Positions 5,107 through 14,670 of a DNA stretch of 20,364 nucleotides are shown here, piece by piece. The DNA comes from a virus. A program made the position numbers and the translations under genes. Each line of letters begins with the position of its first letter. The first letter of the stretch is position 1. The notes below the pieces were generated by a model. The model was not told the DNA's origin, made no database searches, and saw nothing but the letters and a program-made list of their open reading frames with translations. The stretch spans positions 1 to 20,364 of the IMG/VR virus record IMGVR_UViG_3300009320_000137. One strand, given 5' to 3'.

Positions 5107-6498
5107 ATGCCATTGACCACGGAAGAAGCCAGGCGCCGGCAGGAAGATCGGGCCGGCAAATACAAAATCGAGATTAAAGAAGGCGGTCACGTCACCAAGG
5201 CGGCCGAATGCACTCATCTCAACGATGACGAATTCGCCGATCCGGTGAATTACCGCTGTCCCATTGACCAAGCCCACATTCGAGCGGCTGCGAGGTACTG
5301 GGGAAAGGAGGAGAACAGGGCTCTATATACAGAGGCCGAACAGGCGATCGTCACGGAGCGAATCGATGAAGCGTTCAAGCGCTTTAAAGTAGGGCCGTAC
5401 AGTGAGAACTCAGCCATGGGACCCTCGGTGCCTTTTGCGCAAGGCGAAGGCGAGTCCCCACGCGAAATCCAGCTCTGCCCCCTTGGCTATCATTACCGGG
5501 GAAGCCGGCCCTTCTATCTCGCTTCGGAAGATATACCGACGATCATAGCCAACTTCGAGGAATGGCCTCCGGACGTGCCAATCGATTATGAGCACGGCAC
5601 CCACAGGCAGGGCGAACAGGGGCTCAAGGCGCCGGCTGCCGGCTGGATCGGCAGGCTCATTGACGGAGGCGACAGGGGGCTACTGGCAGAGGTTACAGAA
5701 TGGACGCCGGAAGGTGCTGATCACGTGCTCGATAAGGAATATCGCTACGTCTCCCCGGTATTTCTCCTGGACGAGAATGAGCACGCCATGGATCTGTTGA
5801 GCGTCGGCCTCACGAATATCCCAGGGACACCCATAAATCCGGTGATGAACCGGAAAAATCAAAACCAGAAGGAGATGCAAATGGAAGAGTTAATCAAGAA
5901 ACTTCGAACTCTCTTCGGCTTGAATGACCAGGCCGGGGAGGATGACATTTACAAGTCGGCCGAGACGAGTATGAACCGGATGGACCCGGTTCGCAAGGAG
6001 CTGGGTTTGGCCGATGACGCGGCCGACGAGCAGGTGCTCGAAGCGATCAAGGTGAGTGCTAACCGGATCGCGCATCCGGAAGTGCTCAAGCTTCTCAAGC
6101 TCGATGACAAGGCCGGTGTGGCCGAAGTCACCGGCAAAATTGTTACTCTCCAGAACGCAAGCGAAAACCGGGGGGATGTGGGCACCCGGATCGAGCAGCT
6201 CGAGAAGGACGCCAAGGAGCGGCGCCGTGATGAGCTCGTGGACCGGGCCAAGAAGGAGGGGAAGATCACGGCAAATCAGCTCGACTGGGCCAAGAAGATG
6301 GCCGAGGACGATCCCAAGGGATTCGAGAAGTTCCTCGAATCGGCCCCTGTGGTCGTAAACACCCGCGAGCTCGGCAACGAGAACGCGGACACAGGCAGTG
6401 GGGATGCTCTGATAGATGAGGGCCAGGCATCGGTCAACCGGCAACTCGGCATCACGGACGAGGTCTTTAAGAAGCACAACACACCGGCCACGGCCTGA
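5107..6498 (+). CDS. Head maturation protease with C-terminal scaffold (Mu gpI/gp32-like)
   Basis: This 463-residue protein has three parts. Residues about 30-97 (ECTHLNDDEFADPVNYRCPI and a helical tail) resemble a small accessory domain (DUF6582-like, by eye) seen next to phage capsid proteases. Residues about 115-250 are the Mu I protease: IQLCPLGYHYRG, VPIDYEHG (H163), PAAGWIG, EYRYVSPVF (S216) and LTNIPGTPINPV. H163 and S216 are the likely catalytic pair for a procapsid serine protease, by family analogy. Residues 259-463 are helical, acidic and scaffold-like, ending in a capsid-binding-type helix RQLGITDEVFKKHN. It lies directly before the decoration and capsid genes. ATG 5107 is preceded by GAGGGA. 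Confidence 0.88.
   Translation: MPLTTEEARRRQEDRAGKYKIEIKEGGHVTKAAECTHLNDDEFADPVNYRCPIDQAHIRAAARYWGKEENRALYTEAEQAIVTERIDEAFKRFKVGPYSENSAMGPSVPFAQGEGESPREIQLCPLGYHYRGSRPFYLASEDIPTIIANFEEWPPDVPIDYEHGTHRQGEQGLKAPAAGWIGRLIDGGDRGLLAEVTEWTPEGADHVLDKEYRYVSPVFLLDENEHAMDLLSVGLTNIPGTPINPVMNRKNQNQKEMQMEELIKKLRTLFGLNDQAGEDDIYKSAETSMNRMDPVRKELGLADDAADEQVLEAIKVSANRIAHPEVLKLLKLDDKAGVAEVTGKIVTLQNASENRGDVGTRIEQLEKDAKERRRDELVDRAKKEGKITANQLDWAKKMAEDDPKGFEKFLESAPVVVNTRELGNENADTGSGDALIDEGQASVNRQLGITDEVFKKHNTPATA
5869..5874 (+). promoter_or_regulatory. Internal ribosome binding site for the nested scaffold
   Basis: AAGGAG lies inside the protease gene, six bases before the in-frame ATG at 5881. It is better than the ribosome site of the full-length gene at 5092-5097. 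It sits in an A-rich, apparently unstructured stretch at the junction between the protease and scaffold domains. Confidence 0.75.
5881..6498 (+). CDS. Nested in-frame scaffold protein (Mu gpZ-like)
   Basis: An internal start at ATG 5881 (residue 259 of the protease) would give a 205-residue protein identical to the C-terminal part of the protease gene. ATG 5875 is in frame two codons earlier but lies too close to the ribosome site. The product is charged and helical: MEELIKKLRTLFGL start, coiled-coil section RIEQLEKDAKERRRDEL, and a C-terminal helix QLGITDEVF. Mu makes its scaffold Z in this way from gene I. The role here is to shape the procapsid and then be degraded by the protease. The strong ribosome site exactly at the domain boundary is direct evidence, and expression is inferred. 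Confidence 0.78.
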   Translation: MEELIKKLRTLFGLNDQAGEDDIYKSAETSMNRMDPVRKELGLADDAADEQVLEAIKVSANRIAHPEVLKLLKLDDKAGVAEVTGKIVTLQNASENRGDVGTRIEQLEKDAKERRRDELVDRAKKEGKITANQLDWAKKMAEDDPKGFEKFLESAPVVVNTRELGNENADTGSGDALIDEGQASVNRQLGITDEVFKKHNTPATA

Positions 6499-6599
6499 GT
6501 GCCGGAGCGGCAAGAGAACGACGAAGAGAGCGGAGAAGAAGCGAGGGGAGCCGGAAAGCAGTCAAGCACTGAAGAATAACGCGAAAGGAGAAAATAACA

Positions 6600-8047: not shown

Positions 8048-8236
8048 ATGGCAATCAAGATCATCTCGAAGCAGGAAGGGTTCATGCGGTGCGGAATCAA
8101 GCACTCCGCGGAGCCGAAGGTCTACCCGGACGACAAGTTCAGCAAAAAGGAGCTCGCGCGCCTCGAGGGCGACAAGATGCTCATCGTCGTCGATGTGCCG
8201 AATTCCGAGCTCAAGAAGAACGGTAAGGAGAAGTAA
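8048..8236 (+). CDS. Mu gp35-like small protein (FluMu N-terminal domain type)
   Basis: This 62-residue protein starts at ATG 8048 after AAAGGAG (8033-8039). IKIISKQEGFMRCGIKHSAE, then KFSKKELARLEGDKMLIVV, resembles the short domain at the start of Mu-like gp35/HI1506 proteins ('F.R.G..F....t.....t..ql..L..d..L.V'). Here only that domain is present. The function is unknown, and its position between capsid and gp36 matches gp35. The stop TAA is followed at once by the GTG start of the next gene. Confidence 0.7.
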   Translation: MAIKIISKQEGFMRCGIKHSAEPKVYPDDKFSKKELARLEGDKMLIVVDVPNSELKKNGKEK

Positions 8237-8665
8237 GTGCCTTACCTGGAGCAAACCGACCTTCTTGAGCTCATCGACGAGGCGACTCTCATCTCCCTCA
8301 CCGATGATGCAGATGACGGCTACGTGAACGAGGAGATCGTTGCCGAGGTCCTCGATACGGCCGAAGAGGAGGCCATGGGGTACATAGCAAATCGGTACTC
8401 CGTGCCTCTTGTAGAGGTGCCCGGCGTAGTGAAGAAGCACACGGTGGCGATCGCCGCCCATGCTCTTTACTCGAGGCGCATGGATCCTCCCGATCGGATC
8501 GTGACGGCCCACAAGAATGCGATCAATTATTTCCTCAAGGTCGCAGACGGCAAGGCCCACATTCAGGGGGCGACTCCGAAGACCGATCCGGCCACGCGCA
8601 CGAGCGCCGGCCGCACTGACGGGAACGAGAGGCTCTTCACCCGAACGAAGCTCGAGGACGCCTGA
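8237..8665 (+). CDS. Mu gp36-like head-tail connector (DUF1320)
   Basis: This 142-residue protein has a GTG start directly abutting the previous stop, with AAGGAG at 8225-8230. MPYLEQTDLLELIDEATLIS, the acidic DDADDGYVNEEIVAEVLDTAEEEAMGYIANRYSVPL segment (about residues 22-58) and HTVAIAAHALYSRR define DUF1320. The family forms the head-completion adaptor under the portal. The C-terminal 40 residues (TKTxP..RTSAGRTDGNERLF, as a loose description) are low in structure, as is common in the family. TGATG overlap with the next gene. Confidence 0.87.
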   Translation: MPYLEQTDLLELIDEATLISLTDDADDGYVNEEIVAEVLDTAEEEAMGYIANRYSVPLVEVPGVVKKHTVAIAAHALYSRRMDPPDRIVTAHKNAINYFLKVADGKAHIQGATPKTDPATRTSAGRTDGNERLFTRTKLEDA

Positions 8666-9868: not shown

Positions 9869-11266
9869 ATGTGGGGAGGAGTAACAGAATACATCCAGGA
9901 CGGCAACCTTGGGTTGCCGCCCACGGAGGTGGAGGGTGCTCTGTTTTTCGTCGGCGTGAGTGATACCGGCGAAGCGGAAACCCTCTACTATATCGACAAG
10001 AACAGCAACGTCCGGGGCGATCTGGGCCTGGGACCATTGCCCACCAAGATCCTCGACGCCCTGGCCGTGGGATCTGAGAAGACCAAGATCGTCGCGGTGA
10101 AGGCCACGAGCGACGTGACCGGCTCAAGGGGTACCATCACGCACTCCGGGACCGGGAGCGCCACGTATGCCTCCAGCGGGGATCCCAAGGACGAGTACCA
10201 GTTTCTCCTCGAGATCCTCACGGGAGGAGAGCTCGCGGATGCCGTCTACAAATGGTCCCGCGACGGCGGGCGTCACTGGTCCGGAGAGCTCGCGTTTTCC
10301 GGTGTCGGGGCGGTCGTGCTCGGGGATACCGGCGTGACGATCACCTTCACCGAGGGCGTGCCGCCGAGCTTCGTTGCCAGCGACACCTACGCCTTCAACA
10401 CCACGGCTCCGGATGCCTCGCTGGCGAACAAGCTCTCGGCGCTCAACTGGGCGATCGAGCGCGTGGCCGTGGAAGGCATCGTGATCCTGGGCGAGAGCGA
10501 TGCAGCGGCTTGGGCCTCGTTCGGAACGTGGGCCGACACGAAATTCACCGAGCACCGGCCGATGTTCATGCTGCTCGAGTCCACGGCTCCGGCCGATGGG
10601 GAGGCGCTGGCCACATGGGTTGCGGCCCGAGTGACGGAGAGGGCCACCTACTCCCATGCGCGTGTTTCTGTGGTGGCCATGGGAGCGAACATTACTGACG
10701 CCGATGGCAACGCGATCGGCCGAAACGGAATCGGCCTGGTGGCCGGGACCATTTCGAAGATTCCGACGATGCGATCGATGGGGAACGTGAACGAGTGTCC
10801 CCAGACGCCGGCGTTGGCGCTCTATCCGGCGCTCACAACAGCGCAGGCCAAGACCCTCGACGACAACGATCTCATCACCTTCCGTCATTACGTGGGCCTG
10901 GAGAACATCTTCATCACAGACGGCCACACGATCGCCGCCGCCACGAGCGACTATCAGAAGCTCGAAACGCGGCGCGTGGTGGACAAGTCCGTGAGGCTGT
11001 GCCGTGTGGCGGCGCTACGGAAGGTCCATAGCGAGACCGAAGGGGCCGAGGGCGACGAGAGCGGTCTCAAGGACCTCGAGAATCACCTCGAACAGGCCCT
11101 GGAGCGTATGAAGCATCCGGTACGCGAGATCACGAACTACGGTGTCGTGATACCGGAAGGCCAGGACATCATCGGCACGAGCGAGGTTCAGGTGCAGCTC
11201 TCGATGGTGCCGGTGCCGATCATGCGGAATATAACCCTTAACTTCGGGCTGGCTGTTTCGCTGTAG
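9869..11266 (+). CDS. Contractile tail sheath protein (DUF2586-like)
   Basis: This 465-residue protein has strong AAGGAGGAA (9855-9863) before ATG 9869. The start is MWGGVTEYIQDGNLG, followed by a beta-rich domain (about residues 100-180) likely exposed on the sheath surface. The C-terminal half carries HYVGLENIFITDGHTIAAA and SDYQKLETRRVVDKSVRL (about 335-375), with the final VPIMRNITLNFGLAVSL. These C-terminal motifs recall DUF2586-type sheath proteins more than classical Mu gpL, by eye. It polymerises around the tube and contracts on infection. The position before the tube gene and the contractile baseplate genes downstream support this. Confidence 0.82.
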   Translation: MWGGVTEYIQDGNLGLPPTEVEGALFFVGVSDTGEAETLYYIDKNSNVRGDLGLGPLPTKILDALAVGSEKTKIVAVKATSDVTGSRGTITHSGTGSATYASSGDPKDEYQFLLEILTGGELADAVYKWSRDGGRHWSGELAFSGVGAVVLGDTGVTITFTEGVPPSFVASDTYAFNTTAPDASLANKLSALNWAIERVAVEGIVILGESDAAAWASFGTWADTKFTEHRPMFMLLESTAPADGEALATWVAARVTERATYSHARVSVVAMGANITDADGNAIGRNGIGLVAGTISKIPTMRSMGNVNECPQTPALALYPALTTAQAKTLDDNDLITFRHYVGLENIFITDGHTIAAATSDYQKLETRRVVDKSVRLCRVAALRKVHSETEGAEGDESGLKDLENHLEQALERMKHPVREITNYGVVIPEGQDIIGTSEVQVQLSMVPVPIMRNITLNFGLAVSL

Positions 11267-11294
11267 TCCGGCCGAGCCTCAGTAAGGAGAGATC

Positions 11295-11750
11295 ATGAGT
11301 GTCAATGGCAAATATTTCTCATGGGAGGACATCACCATTTTCCTCCCTCAAGGTGCGCTCCTCGATGTCCAGGACATCGAGTACAGTGATGAGAAGGAGG
11401 TGGAGGAGGTCTACGGCAAGGGCTCCAAGCCGGTGGGCTATGGGCGCGGCAACTACAAGGGAGCGGGGAAGCTCACCCTGAAGCGTGAGGGCTACGATCA
11501 GCTCATGGCTTACTGCAAGACCCAGGGCAAAGCCTTCTACGGCCTGGATCCCTTCCCCATCACGGTGAGCTACGCCAACAGCAATGATGCGCCGGTCACC
11601 GACAAGCTCAAGGACTGCAAATTCACGAAGCGTGATTTCAAGGGCGCCCAGGGCGACAAGAGCGTAAACGTGGAGTTGCCGTTCATCATCATCGGTGGGA
11701 TCAACTCCGATGGAGTGGACGCGACCGCAGACAACACGAGCCTTCACTAG
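11295..11750 (+). CDS. Tail tube protein (Mu gpM-like)
   Basis: This 151-residue protein starts at ATG 11295 after AAGGAG (11283-11288). GKYFSWEDITIFLPQGALLDVQDIEYSDEKEVEEVYGKG, then KPVGYGRGNYKGAGKLTLKREG, is the pattern of contractile-tail tube proteins (reported here as two segments, about residues 5-45 and 45-65). The rest is beta-rich, ending in VELPFIIIGGI. It forms the inner tube polymer and directly follows the sheath gene. Confidence 0.82.
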   Translation: MSVNGKYFSWEDITIFLPQGALLDVQDIEYSDEKEVEEVYGKGSKPVGYGRGNYKGAGKLTLKREGYDQLMAYCKTQGKAFYGLDPFPITVSYANSNDAPVTDKLKDCKFTKRDFKGAQGDKSVNVELPFIIIGGINSDGVDATADNTSLH

Positions 11751-11755
11751 GCGAT

Positions 11756-11772
11756 TCGGCCTAACTGGCCGA
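11756..11772 (+). other. Stem-loop between tube gene and chaperone gene
   Basis: TCGGCC (11756-11761) pairs with GGCCGA (11767-11772) around TAACT. The right arm covers the GA of the GAGG (11771-11774) just ahead of ATG 11777, so the fold may hide a ribosome site if that ATG is used. No T tract follows. Confidence 0.5.
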
Positions 11773-11776
11773 GGCG

Positions 11777-12130
11777 ATGATGGAGAGTAAGGAAATGACG
11801 AACGAGTTGAAGGCCAAGATCGAGGCTTGGAAGAAGGAGCACGGCGAGCTCTCAGAGCTCATTGTGAGCTGGGATGTGGAAGGCGTTGAGCAGAGCCGTT
11901 CCTTTATCGTTCATAAGCCGAAGCCGGCGAGCTTCGATATTCTCATGCAGGGGATCATGCAGAAGCCCACGAAGGCGATGAAGAACTTCGTGATCTCGGT
12001 GCTCCTGCATCCGAGCCAGGAGGAGTTCCTCTCCCTGGCGGAGAAGTATCCCGGCGTGCTCATGAACCTGGGCAACTCGATCCTCGAGGAGTTCGGCATC
12101 AAAGCCGACGTAGTTAAAAAAAAGCTCTAG
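11777..12130 (+). CDS. Tail assembly chaperone, short (unshifted) form
   Basis: The product is 117 residues, the 0-frame of a tail chaperone pair analogous to lambda G, P2 E and the Mu gp41 region. MTNELKAKIEAWKKEHGEL is followed by a beta strand region and the helical VLLHPSQEEFLSLAEKYPGVLMNLGNSILEEFG, typical of chaperones that bind tape measure proteins. The ATG at 11777 or the one at 11795 (with GGAG at 11782-11785) could be used. The last codons read GTT AAA AAA AAG CTC TAG, ending in the frameshift site described separately. It lies between the tube and tape measure genes, as in many phages. Confidence 0.82.
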   Translation: MMESKEMTNELKAKIEAWKKEHGELSELIVSWDVEGVEQSRSFIVHKPKPASFDILMQGIMQKPTKAMKNFVISVLLHPSQEEFLSLAEKYPGVLMNLGNSILEEFGIKADVVKKKL

Positions 12131-12315
12131 AGATAAGGTCCTCGCCTCTGCGCGAGGGCCTTGTCCTCATCAGGCACTACTTCGGCATAGACGCACGGAA
12201 ATTCAACATGGATGAATTCATCGAACACTACTCAGAAGCTTGGTACATGGTGGAGTTGGAGCGGGATATCCTGGCCAGCGCGATCGGGAAGGCTTTTGGC
12301 GTGAAAGATCAGTGA
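11777..12315 (+). CDS. Tail assembly chaperone, -1 frameshift fusion (GT-type)
   Basis: A -1 slip on A_AAA_AAG (12118-12124) moves ribosomes into a frame open to TGA 12313-12315, adding 63 residues after residue 116 for a 179-residue product. The added part reads ALEIRSSPLREGLVLIRHY, then FGIDARKFNMDEFIEHYSE and a helical end, a plausible domain for tape measure or tube binding. No start codon with a good ribosome site serves this second frame alone. Fusions like this are conserved in most long-tailed phages (Xu, Hendrix and Duda). The site, the downstream stem and the open frame are seen here. The amount produced is inferred to be low. Confidence 0.82.
12118..12162 (+). promoter_or_regulatory. 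Programmed -1 ribosomal frameshift signal: A_AAA_AAG plus downstream stem-loop
   Basis: Slippery heptamer A AAA AAG at 12118-12124, within a run of eight A. A stem of AAGGTCCTCGC (12135-12145) pairs with GCGAGGGCCTT (12152-12162): 11 pairs with one G-T wobble, loop CTCTGC. The spacer is ten bases, slightly longer than the usual five to nine. The 0-frame stop TAG 12128-12130 lies in the spacer. Confidence 0.8.
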
Positions 12316-12533
12316 TTCGCAGATGAAAGATTGGAGGCTTTCAGGGCTTTTTCACGGGCATCTTGAGCCCGCCAGCCCTCTATAAAGGACTCTTTCCAGA
12401 CGTGGGTGACAATGCGGAAACAGGCATAGGTGAGTTTGACAAGCTTGGGACCGAAATAAACCAGAGCCCAACAGAGACCGATGATCGCGCCAATGCCGAA
12501 GAAAAAGAAGACGGGACCGAGAGCTTCAAACAT
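12309..12533 (-). CDS. Reverse-strand small membrane protein with its own promoter (candidate moron)
   Basis: The protein has 74 residues and is read opposite to every other gene here. ATG 12533 is preceded by a perfect AGGAGGT (12542-12548) at eight bases, and a sigma-70-type promoter lies just upstream. Residues about 5-30 (VFFFFGIGAIIGLCWALVYF) form one transmembrane helix, followed by a cationic segment (GPKLVKLTYACFRIVTHVWK) and a charged tail WRAQDAREKALKA. No family is recognised. It fits a lysogenic conversion gene (moron), perhaps for superinfection exclusion or another change at the inner membrane, by inference from context. Its stop overlaps the end of the frameshift fusion by seven bases. 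The DNA looks less GC-rich than its neighbours, suggesting later gain. Confidence 0.78.
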   Translation of the reverse strand: MFEALGPVFFFFGIGAIIGLCWALVYFGPKLVKLTYACFRIVTHVWKESFIEGWRAQDAREKALKASNLSSANH

Positions 12534-12541
12534 GGCAGCAC

Positions 12542-12548
12542 ACCTCCT
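12542..12548 (-). promoter_or_regulatory. Shine-Dalgarno of the reverse-strand gene
   Basis: AGGAGGT on the minus strand (ACCTCCT on +), eight bases before the ATG. It is the longest match to the anti-SD sequence noted in the window and decides the start of the 74-residue protein. Confidence 0.8.
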
Positions 12549-12559
12549 GAGATGATTAC

Positions 12560-12588
12560 AGTATAGGGCAACAAGGACCTCCAGTCAA
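12560..12588 (-). promoter_or_regulatory. Sigma-70-type promoter for the reverse-strand gene
   Basis: On the minus strand, TTGACT (-35, 12588-12583) is 17 bases from TATACT (-10, 12565-12560). Each box is 5/6 to consensus and the spacing is optimal. Transcription would begin near 12553, about 20 bases before the ATG. The -35 box overlaps the leader just before the tape measure start (12589). Confidence 0.75.
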
Positions 12589-14670
12589 ATGGATTCGATC
12601 TTCGAATTGGCCGTCATAATCAAGGCCATTGATCAGATCTCCGGGCCGATAAAGAGCGCTCGCAAGGTGCTCGGGGATTTCGATAAATGGGCCGGCAAGG
12701 CTGACGGTATGGTTCGGTTCGGAGAACGGGCCGGCGTGGCCAGCGCCTTCATAGGTGCATCGGCGGCCAAGATGCGCGGAGCTCTGGGAGAAATCCTGGG
12801 GCCGCTCACTGAGGTCGAAGACTCCATGGCCAAGGTGCAAAGCGTCATTACTCCGATGAGCGGGGATATGGCCGCCTCGATGGCGAACATGAAAGCGGCG
12901 GCCCTGGACTGGAGCAAGGCTCATACCGACAGCGCCACAGAATTTCTCGACACCTCATACATGATGCTCTCAGCCGGACTCAACGAGGCAGCCGCTGTTG
13001 AAGCAACGCGTACAGCGATGGCCGTGGCCACGGCTACGATGGGCGATAACGTCGAAGCGGCTGATCTCATGGCACGCGTTTACAACAACCTGGGTGATCA
13101 GAGTGCCGATGTAGCAGGGGAGATGAGCCGGCTGGGCGATATCCTCACCAAGACTCAGCAGACCTTCCAGATCGCAAACCTCAACCAGCTCGCCACGGGC
13201 CTTCAGTATGGGATCCCAGTGGCCAAGCAGTTCGGTATCTCTGTTGAGCAGGTCAATGCCTCTATCGGCATGCTCAATACTCTCGGCCTGCAAGGATCGA
13301 TGGCAGGCACGGCTTTTGCCGCTACCATGCGGAACATGATCAAGGCCAGCGGTGAGCTTGGATTTGAGATGGCTCGAACGGCCTCTGGCGGTATCGACTT
13401 TGTCGGAACCGTGGAGAACATCCGGGCCGTGTACGGTGATTTTTCAAAGATGACCGATCGACAGAAGACTGCCTTCCAGAAGGCGTTTGGAGACGAGGGC
13501 CTGCGGGCTGTCTCGGTACTACTTGGCAAGACAGGGGAGCTGCGATCGGCCCTGGGTACAGTGACCGGATCGGCCGGGGCGACCACGGCGGCGATGATCA
13601 CGATGGAAAGTACATCCAGCGCCCAATTCAGAATTCTTCACAACAACCTGGACGCTGTGAAGGTGACGATCGGCGAGCACCTTCTTCCTATGATCAATCG
13701 CGGGATCCCCATTGTACAGAAGCTCATCACGAACATGGGCCGGTTTGCCGAGGCTCATCCGGGACTGATGAAGATCGGCGTGAGCCTCCTGGCGATCATG
13801 GCAGTGCTCCTAAGCATTATTGCTCCTATCCTCTCGGTAGGTGCCGGTTTTATGTTGATGGGAGGCTATGGGCTCAAGGCGGTTCTTGGAGTAGTGAGCG
13901 CGCTGCAGTGGCTCCTGCGGATCATGATATCCGGCAGTATCCAGGGCGCTGCAAAATCGATCGGTGTGGGATTCAGGTGGGGCTTCGGCCTGGCCAGGAC
14001 GGCCGTGCTTCGAAGCGTTACGGTCCTCCGAGCGTTCTCTCTCGGAGTTCTCCAATTGGCACGCCAGGCGCTCATTGCACTGATCGGCGTGCTGCCCGGC
14101 CTTATCGCTTCGGTATGGGCCTTCACGGCCGCTCTGCTTGCCAACCCGATCACATGGGTCGTGCTGGCTGTCGTGGGCCTTGGAGCCGGGCTCTGGGCCC
14201 TGATCAAGCACTGGGACACTGTGAAGGTGGCTTTCATGCAGGCCGTCGACTGGATCATGGGGTTTGGAAAACAGATGTATGCAGCCGGGGCTGCCCTATT
14301 TGCTTCCTTCACCGAGGGCCTGAAAAGCCTGGCCTCCAAGCCCGTCGAGTTCGTGAAGAATACCCTGGGTAAAATCCGGGCAATGCTTCCGTTTTCCGAT
14401 GCCAAGATGGGGCCGCTGGCTGATCTGAGCCGGTCCGGGGAAGCATTCAACGAAACCCTGAGCCGGTCGATCGAGAAGTCGAGCCCCCGGCTGATCTCTA
14501 CAGTGAAAGCCGAGCTCGGCGAGCTCCTCCCACAGCCGGCTCCGGCAGCCGCGCCGGCAGCCGAAACAGGTAGCGGCGAGAGGGTGATCAATATCAATAT
14601 CAACGGCGCAGCTCCGAATATGATCGAGCAGATTGCGGCAGCCGTTAAACTAGCCGTGGAGGCCACCTGA
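12589..14670 (+). CDS. Tail tape measure protein (TP901-type)
   Basis: This 693-residue protein begins MDSIFELAVIIKAIDQISGPI. About residues 75-300 are the PhageMin_Tail/TP901 core domain: VEDSMAKVQSVITPMSGDM, LDTSYMMLSAGLNEAAAVEA, TKTQQTFQIANLNQLATGL, and an MTDRQKTAFQKAFGDEG motif. Two hydrophobic blocks (about 395-440 and 485-540) may enter the host membrane during DNA passage. The C-terminus has KIRAMLPFSDAKMGPL, common to these proteins, followed by a Pro/Ala linker. The length of this protein sets tail length. At about 0.15 nm per residue, a tail near 100 nm is inferred. AAGGA at 12573-12577 is the likely ribosome site. TGATG overlap with the next gene. Confidence 0.9.
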   Translation: MDSIFELAVIIKAIDQISGPIKSARKVLGDFDKWAGKADGMVRFGERAGVASAFIGASAAKMRGALGEILGPLTEVEDSMAKVQSVITPMSGDMAASMANMKAAALDWSKAHTDSATEFLDTSYMMLSAGLNEAAAVEATRTAMAVATATMGDNVEAADLMARVYNNLGDQSADVAGEMSRLGDILTKTQQTFQIANLNQLATGLQYGIPVAKQFGISVEQVNASIGMLNTLGLQGSMAGTAFAATMRNMIKASGELGFEMARTASGGIDFVGTVENIRAVYGDFSKMTDRQKTAFQKAFGDEGLRAVSVLLGKTGELRSALGTVTGSAGATTAAMITMESTSSAQFRILHNNLDAVKVTIGEHLLPMINRGIPIVQKLITNMGRFAEAHPGLMKIGVSLLAIMAVLLSIIAPILSVGAGFMLMGGYGLKAVLGVVSALQWLLRIMISGSIQGAAKSIGVGFRWGFGLARTAVLRSVTVLRAFSLGVLQLARQALIALIGVLPGLIASVWAFTAALLANPITWVVLAVVGLGAGLWALIKHWDTVKVAFMQAVDWIMGFGKQMYAAGAALFASFTEGLKSLASKPVEFVKNTLGKIRAMLPFSDAKMGPLADLSRSGEAFNETLSRSIEKSSPRLISTVKAELGELLPQPAPAAAPAAETGSGERVINININGAAPNMIEQIAAAVKLAVEAT

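Follow-up and report, generated by a model that had tools for sequence, protein, structure and literature searches.

Organization of the antisense gene

The window, a 20,364-base fragment catalogued as a virus contig, comes from a Mu-like phage with a contractile tail (Mu portal, DUF2586 sheath, and tape measure), and its clear phage genes all read on the plus strand, as the first-pass annotation of this DNA had stated. Lysogeny genes are absent from these 20,364 bases, which contain neither an integrase nor MuA. On the minus strand, an ATG-initiated open reading frame encodes a 74-residue product, MFEALGPVFFFFGIGAIIGLCWALVYFGPKLVKLTYACFRIVTHVWKESFIEGWRAQDAREKALKASNLSSANH, and fits into the gap between the frameshifted tail assembly chaperone and the tape measure gene (Table 1). 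The fit noted in the annotation is close: at its 3′ end, the antisense gene shares 7 bases with the close of the chaperone extension produced by −1 frameshifting, and at the other end the −35 hexamer lies directly next to the tape measure ATG. The near-consensus promoter TTGACT-17-TATACT was found on the minus strand as described, with a spacer of 17. A transcript starting near 12553 would have a leader of 20 bases, in agreement with the length proposed, and AGGAGGT stands eight bases ahead of the ATG. The hydrophobic N-terminal helix and cationic tail were recovered as a predicted helix and a basic C-terminal part.

Taken alone, the window promoter is at about chance level (2 sites in 3 kb vs. 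1.2 expected) and is not decisive; the case is settled by comparison, which shows the frame, start, ribosome-binding site, and hexamers unchanged. No plus-strand promoter was found in positions 11000–14000 of the window. No terminator follows the window gene, and terminators were found only after two members of its family (L097 and L049). In L097, a perfect intrinsic terminator (about 185–220) overlaps the stop codon of the member, just ahead of the convergent chaperone end. An alternative minus-strand ORF in a different frame (12380–12574, best 19-residue hydropathy mean 1.46) is less hydrophobic than the 12309–12533 ORF and was set aside.

Table 1 Coordinates of the antisense gene and its neighbours in the window
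Feature	Position	Strand	Description
Antisense moron CDS	12309..12533	-	74 aa; predicted N-terminal membrane helix, ~residues 8–28; C-terminal part cationic and helical, bearing a W..(S/A)F.EGW motif
Ribosome-binding site AGGAGGT	12542..12548	-	8 bases before ATG; identical in the 90% lineage
−10 box TATACT	12560..12565	-	Unchanged in the 90% lineage
−35 box TTGACT	12583..12588	-	Abuts tape measure start codon; promoters at the matching place in other junctions
Tail assembly chaperone, N part	11777..12130	+	Ends after A8 slippery run; phrog_20303 and DUF6848
Chaperone −1 frameshift extension	12118..12315	+	phrog_8523, E 1.7e-4; stop 12313–12315
Tape measure protein (PhageMin_Tail)	12589..14670	+	693 aa; profile matches

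Conservation and selection

The antisense gene is present in three further virus contigs, identical in one and ~90% identical in DNA in two. In the ~90% lineage, the frame, start, ribosome-binding site, and both hexamers are kept despite a 6-base indel in the leader. The annotation had named a frame broken in a retained region as evidence against the gene; in this lineage the frame is intact. Twelve synonymous and 8 non-synonymous changes separate the window gene from its sister (dN/dS 0.21). Most other member pairs give 0.17–0.28, with outliers at 0.07 (L064/L070), 0.39 (L023/L050), and 0.58 (L054/L055), two comparisons involving L082 being excluded from the range. By these codon comparisons, the amino-acid sequence of the antisense gene is under purifying selection.

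The proposed comparison of the chaperone–tape measure junction was run on related loci collected by tape measure searches, most at 35–51% identity. An antisense ORF with a hydrophobic helix (26–98 aa) occurs at 20 of the 32 junctions, which are partly non-independent (e.g., window/L019 and L136/L137). The gene is absent at the other 12, a distribution typical of a moron, that is, an extra gene missing in some relatives; at the sequence level it also has a promoter of its own. The arrangement recurs where tape measure identity is only 37–51%. The best junction promoter matches at least 10 of 12 consensus bases in 12 of the 32 junctions and at least 9 in 17, as against none and 8, respectively, of 9,630 random control windows from the same loci; one member (L027) carries the full consensus TTGACA-17-TATAAT. 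Low dN/dS, together with the promoter enrichment at junctions relative to random windows, led us to reject a chance ORF.

At three junctions (L031, L038, and L057), the ORFs (57, 39, and 26 aa) are antisense and encode predicted membrane proteins without clear homology to the family; their −10 boxes lie only 6–7 bases ahead of the start codon, so that the mRNAs would have almost no leader. An isolate prophage (L013, 2157–3812) has a transposase-like ORF of 551 aa fused in frame to the tail chaperone end; an insertion sequence seems to have entered the chaperone gene. Another prophage junction (L051, about 2430–2500) has lost both the chaperone frameshift extension and the antisense gene.

A family of predicted small membrane proteins

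Most family members share the core FFFFGIG...GW, with a C-terminal GW motif, and the motif is common to members only 20–40% identical. Searches of Pfam, PHROGs, PADLOC, NCBIfam, and PDB with 17 members gave no credible match, and the window protein had none among INPHARED phages and PLSDB plasmids. The sole match to known anti-phage families (PADLOC) was to ZorA (E 0.048, 1 of 17 members), and Phage_holin_3_6 stayed below the Pfam cut-off (best E 0.039, 2 of 17 members). The suggestion in the annotation that the protein might be new is borne out by these library searches insofar as the family is undescribed, but the protein is not peculiar to this phage: the family is widespread. Weak genome matches (L075, L076, and L078–L080) were unrelated or too weak and were discarded.

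AlphaFold2 predicts a single helix (residues 5–72, mean pLDDT 86). All 17 aligned members have no Lys or Arg before the membrane helix and one to three after it, a distribution that, with hydropathy and the positive-inside rule, predicts an N-out/C-in topology; HK97 gp15 shows the same distribution of charges. Judged from sequence, the antisense small membrane genes are a real, previously unrecognised moron family.

Hosts and lone chromosomal copies

A Mu-type transposase is encoded in 9 of the 12 records searched (three host genomes, plus 6 of the 8 virus contigs related to the window), and no integrase was found in any virus record searched. Since the relatives bear MuA without an integrase, they are transposable temperate phages. 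The silent prophage assumed in the annotation is not shown for the window fragment itself, which carries neither type of gene. Bacterial genomes with members are mostly Clostridia/Bacillota assemblies. One prophage (L051/L084) lacks the gene at the junction, yet has a member at a later position, in antisense orientation and ahead of a Mor-like regulator. Six intact lone copies lie in chromosomes with no other intact phage genes nearby (L081, L082, L083, L085, L086, and L087). The L082 copy is accompanied by a frameshifted chaperone relic, and the L083 copy has a chaperone fragment nearby and retains the promoter TTGAAA-17-TATAAT. In L083 (G061, 6150–6569), the stretch from the chaperone relic to a CO dehydrogenase-type gene contains seven tandem copies of a 42-base repeat.

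Conservation of the promoter, ribosome-binding site, and ORF as a unit, purifying selection, terminators on some members, relocation, and intact lone copies together support the reading of the antisense gene as an autonomous moron whose product is a small membrane protein of a new kind.

Three of the six lone copies (L083, L085, and L087) are at CRISPR loci. In L087 (G315:C64, 1534–5824), the member begins 28 bases downstream of a WYL regulator gene and belongs to a series of genes on one strand, among them Csa1, Cas4, Cas2, and Cas1; it is located between these genes and an 8-repeat array ~330 bases away. In L083, an array of 21–22 repeats begins 1.2 kb from the member. In L085 (G172:C34, 5865–6104), the member with its ribosome-binding site replaces the spacer between two CRISPR repeats near the array end, and no separate promoter for it was detected there; this contig has an N run nearby, and the CRISPR-linked loci are mostly metagenome assemblies. 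The L081 contig contains cas4 ~4 kb from the member and no array, and no CRISPR array or cas genes were found within the sequence read for L082 and L086. By our own estimate, well under 1% of genes would be expected this near CRISPR, given the few arrays per genome. Tentatively, the members might form an antiphage membrane-peptide family shared by transposable phages and bacterial CRISPR loci, captured beside cas1-cas2-cas4 and once between repeats. The CRISPR-linked copies hint, independently, that these peptides, which are missing from the profile libraries searched, may serve in immunity.

Proposed function and alternatives

On balance, the antisense gene is best explained as acting against phages at the membrane. 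The host sigma-70 polymerase would transcribe the moron unit against the late tail operon, and because the promoter is the gene's own and faces that operon, the gene could be expressed in the lysogen while the tail genes stay silent. Its product would be a 74-residue cytoplasmic-membrane protein with one helix, the N-terminus outside, and a basic helical tail inside. It would most likely shield the lysogen from infecting phages by disturbing tape measure-dependent DNA entry, as HK97 gp15 does. Recurrence of the family at one spot in many related viruses and, in bacteria, sometimes beside CRISPR genes points to a probable role in guarding infected cells against other viruses. Several observations count against exclusion: Bacillota hosts seem prevalent, and gp15 works in Gram-negative cells; the gene is missing from 12 of 32 junctions; there is no homology to gp15; and L082 and L086 have no nearby array and L081 only cas4.

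The tape measure is a plausible target, a weaker proposal than antiphage action itself. A virus (L089/G791) and a prophage (L050/G002) are collinear and 94.5–99.3% identical over ~32 kb, moron included. The single exception is 1.07 kb inside the tape measure (codons ~65–410), where L089 (G791:C1) and L050 (G002:C6:40898-41968) mostly share 12–40% identity. Such a replacement would look like escape from a tape measure-directed block, and other pressures would give it too; the moron is nearly unchanged despite the swap, so no co-change of moron and target is seen. The pair offers ready targets for mapping any recognised part of the tape measure.

A lysogenic-conversion moron that changes either the envelope or the host's physiology (transport, stress, or surface), with a fitness gain unrelated to phage exclusion, would also fit the autonomous unit and the intact lone copies, and two lone copies (L082 and L086) sit beside ordinary cellular genes only. 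The CRISPR location of half the lone copies, and the junction and topology shared with the exclusion protein gp15, make this alternative rather unlikely. It is improbable that the antisense transcript is the functional element, repressing chaperone and tail expression in the lysogen by interference, with the peptide incidental. Its promoter does face the operon, and as the window gene is not followed by a terminator, transcription may extend into the chaperone gene, but selection acts on the amino acids, a motif is shared across members 20–40% identical, the ribosome-binding site is strong, the ORF is retained where the tail operon is gone, and the L097 and L049 members end with terminators.

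TxpA and BsrG are type I hydrophobic-peptide toxins of Bacillus prophages, and the window protein resembles such toxins in its size, single helix, and charged tail, and its family in the Bacillota hosts. A small type I prophage toxin with an antisense RNA antidote is nevertheless very improbable: the 11000–14000 region offers no plus-strand promoter for the antidote, the leader is short, the ribosome-binding site is open and strong, and the late operon would be silent in the lysogen, exactly when the antidote is required. Least probable of all is a holin or antiholin. The one-helix protein with a charged tail and the weak Phage_holin_3_6 matches would suit it, but the gene is antisense to the late operon under its own host-type promoter, copies are kept at CRISPR loci, and no holin family reaches the cut-off.

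Comparison with known systems

Antiphage action at the membrane has several precedents. In Gram-positive phages, TP-J34 Ltp and Tuc2009 Sie2009 are prophage-expressed, membrane-located blockers of DNA injection, and Ltp, a cell-surface lipoprotein, acts via the tape measure protein (PMC3952083, PMC10883804); the window gene, in contrast, encodes a one-helix membrane protein within the tail operon, and the likeness is one of description only. SNIPE, a membrane-bound nuclease with DUF4041, becomes associated with the tape measure protein as DNA is injected (PMC13190303). It resembles the proposed role of the window protein in membrane defence, whereas the window protein has no catalytic domain. 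The HK97 "reverse moron" gp23 (NC_002167) is encoded against the direction of the tail operon, as is the window gene, but sits elsewhere in that operon; the comparison is one of strand and place.

The closest parallel is HK97 gp15, described as a superinfection-exclusion moron and predicted inner-membrane protein (Cumby et al. 2012, via PMC10883804). Its gene (8203–8391) occupies the same slot as the window gene, between a frameshifted chaperone ending at 8145 and a tape measure starting at 8435, and both proteins are about 62–74 aa long, with a predicted single N-out/C-in helix and charged C-terminal part. Unlike the window family, which is antisense, gp15 is on the sense strand; it is found only in phages of E. 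coli and Klebsiella, whereas the window family occurs in Mu-like phages, mainly linked to Bacillota. Homology of the family to gp15 was not detected (hhalign profile probability 0.1%), so we do not claim membership in the gp15 family; that the window protein works like gp15 is a reasonable analogy. The presence of unrelated families at one junction, gp15 in sense and the window family in antisense, suggests that exclusion genes have repeatedly settled in the slot adjacent to the tape measure, a place open to systematic survey.
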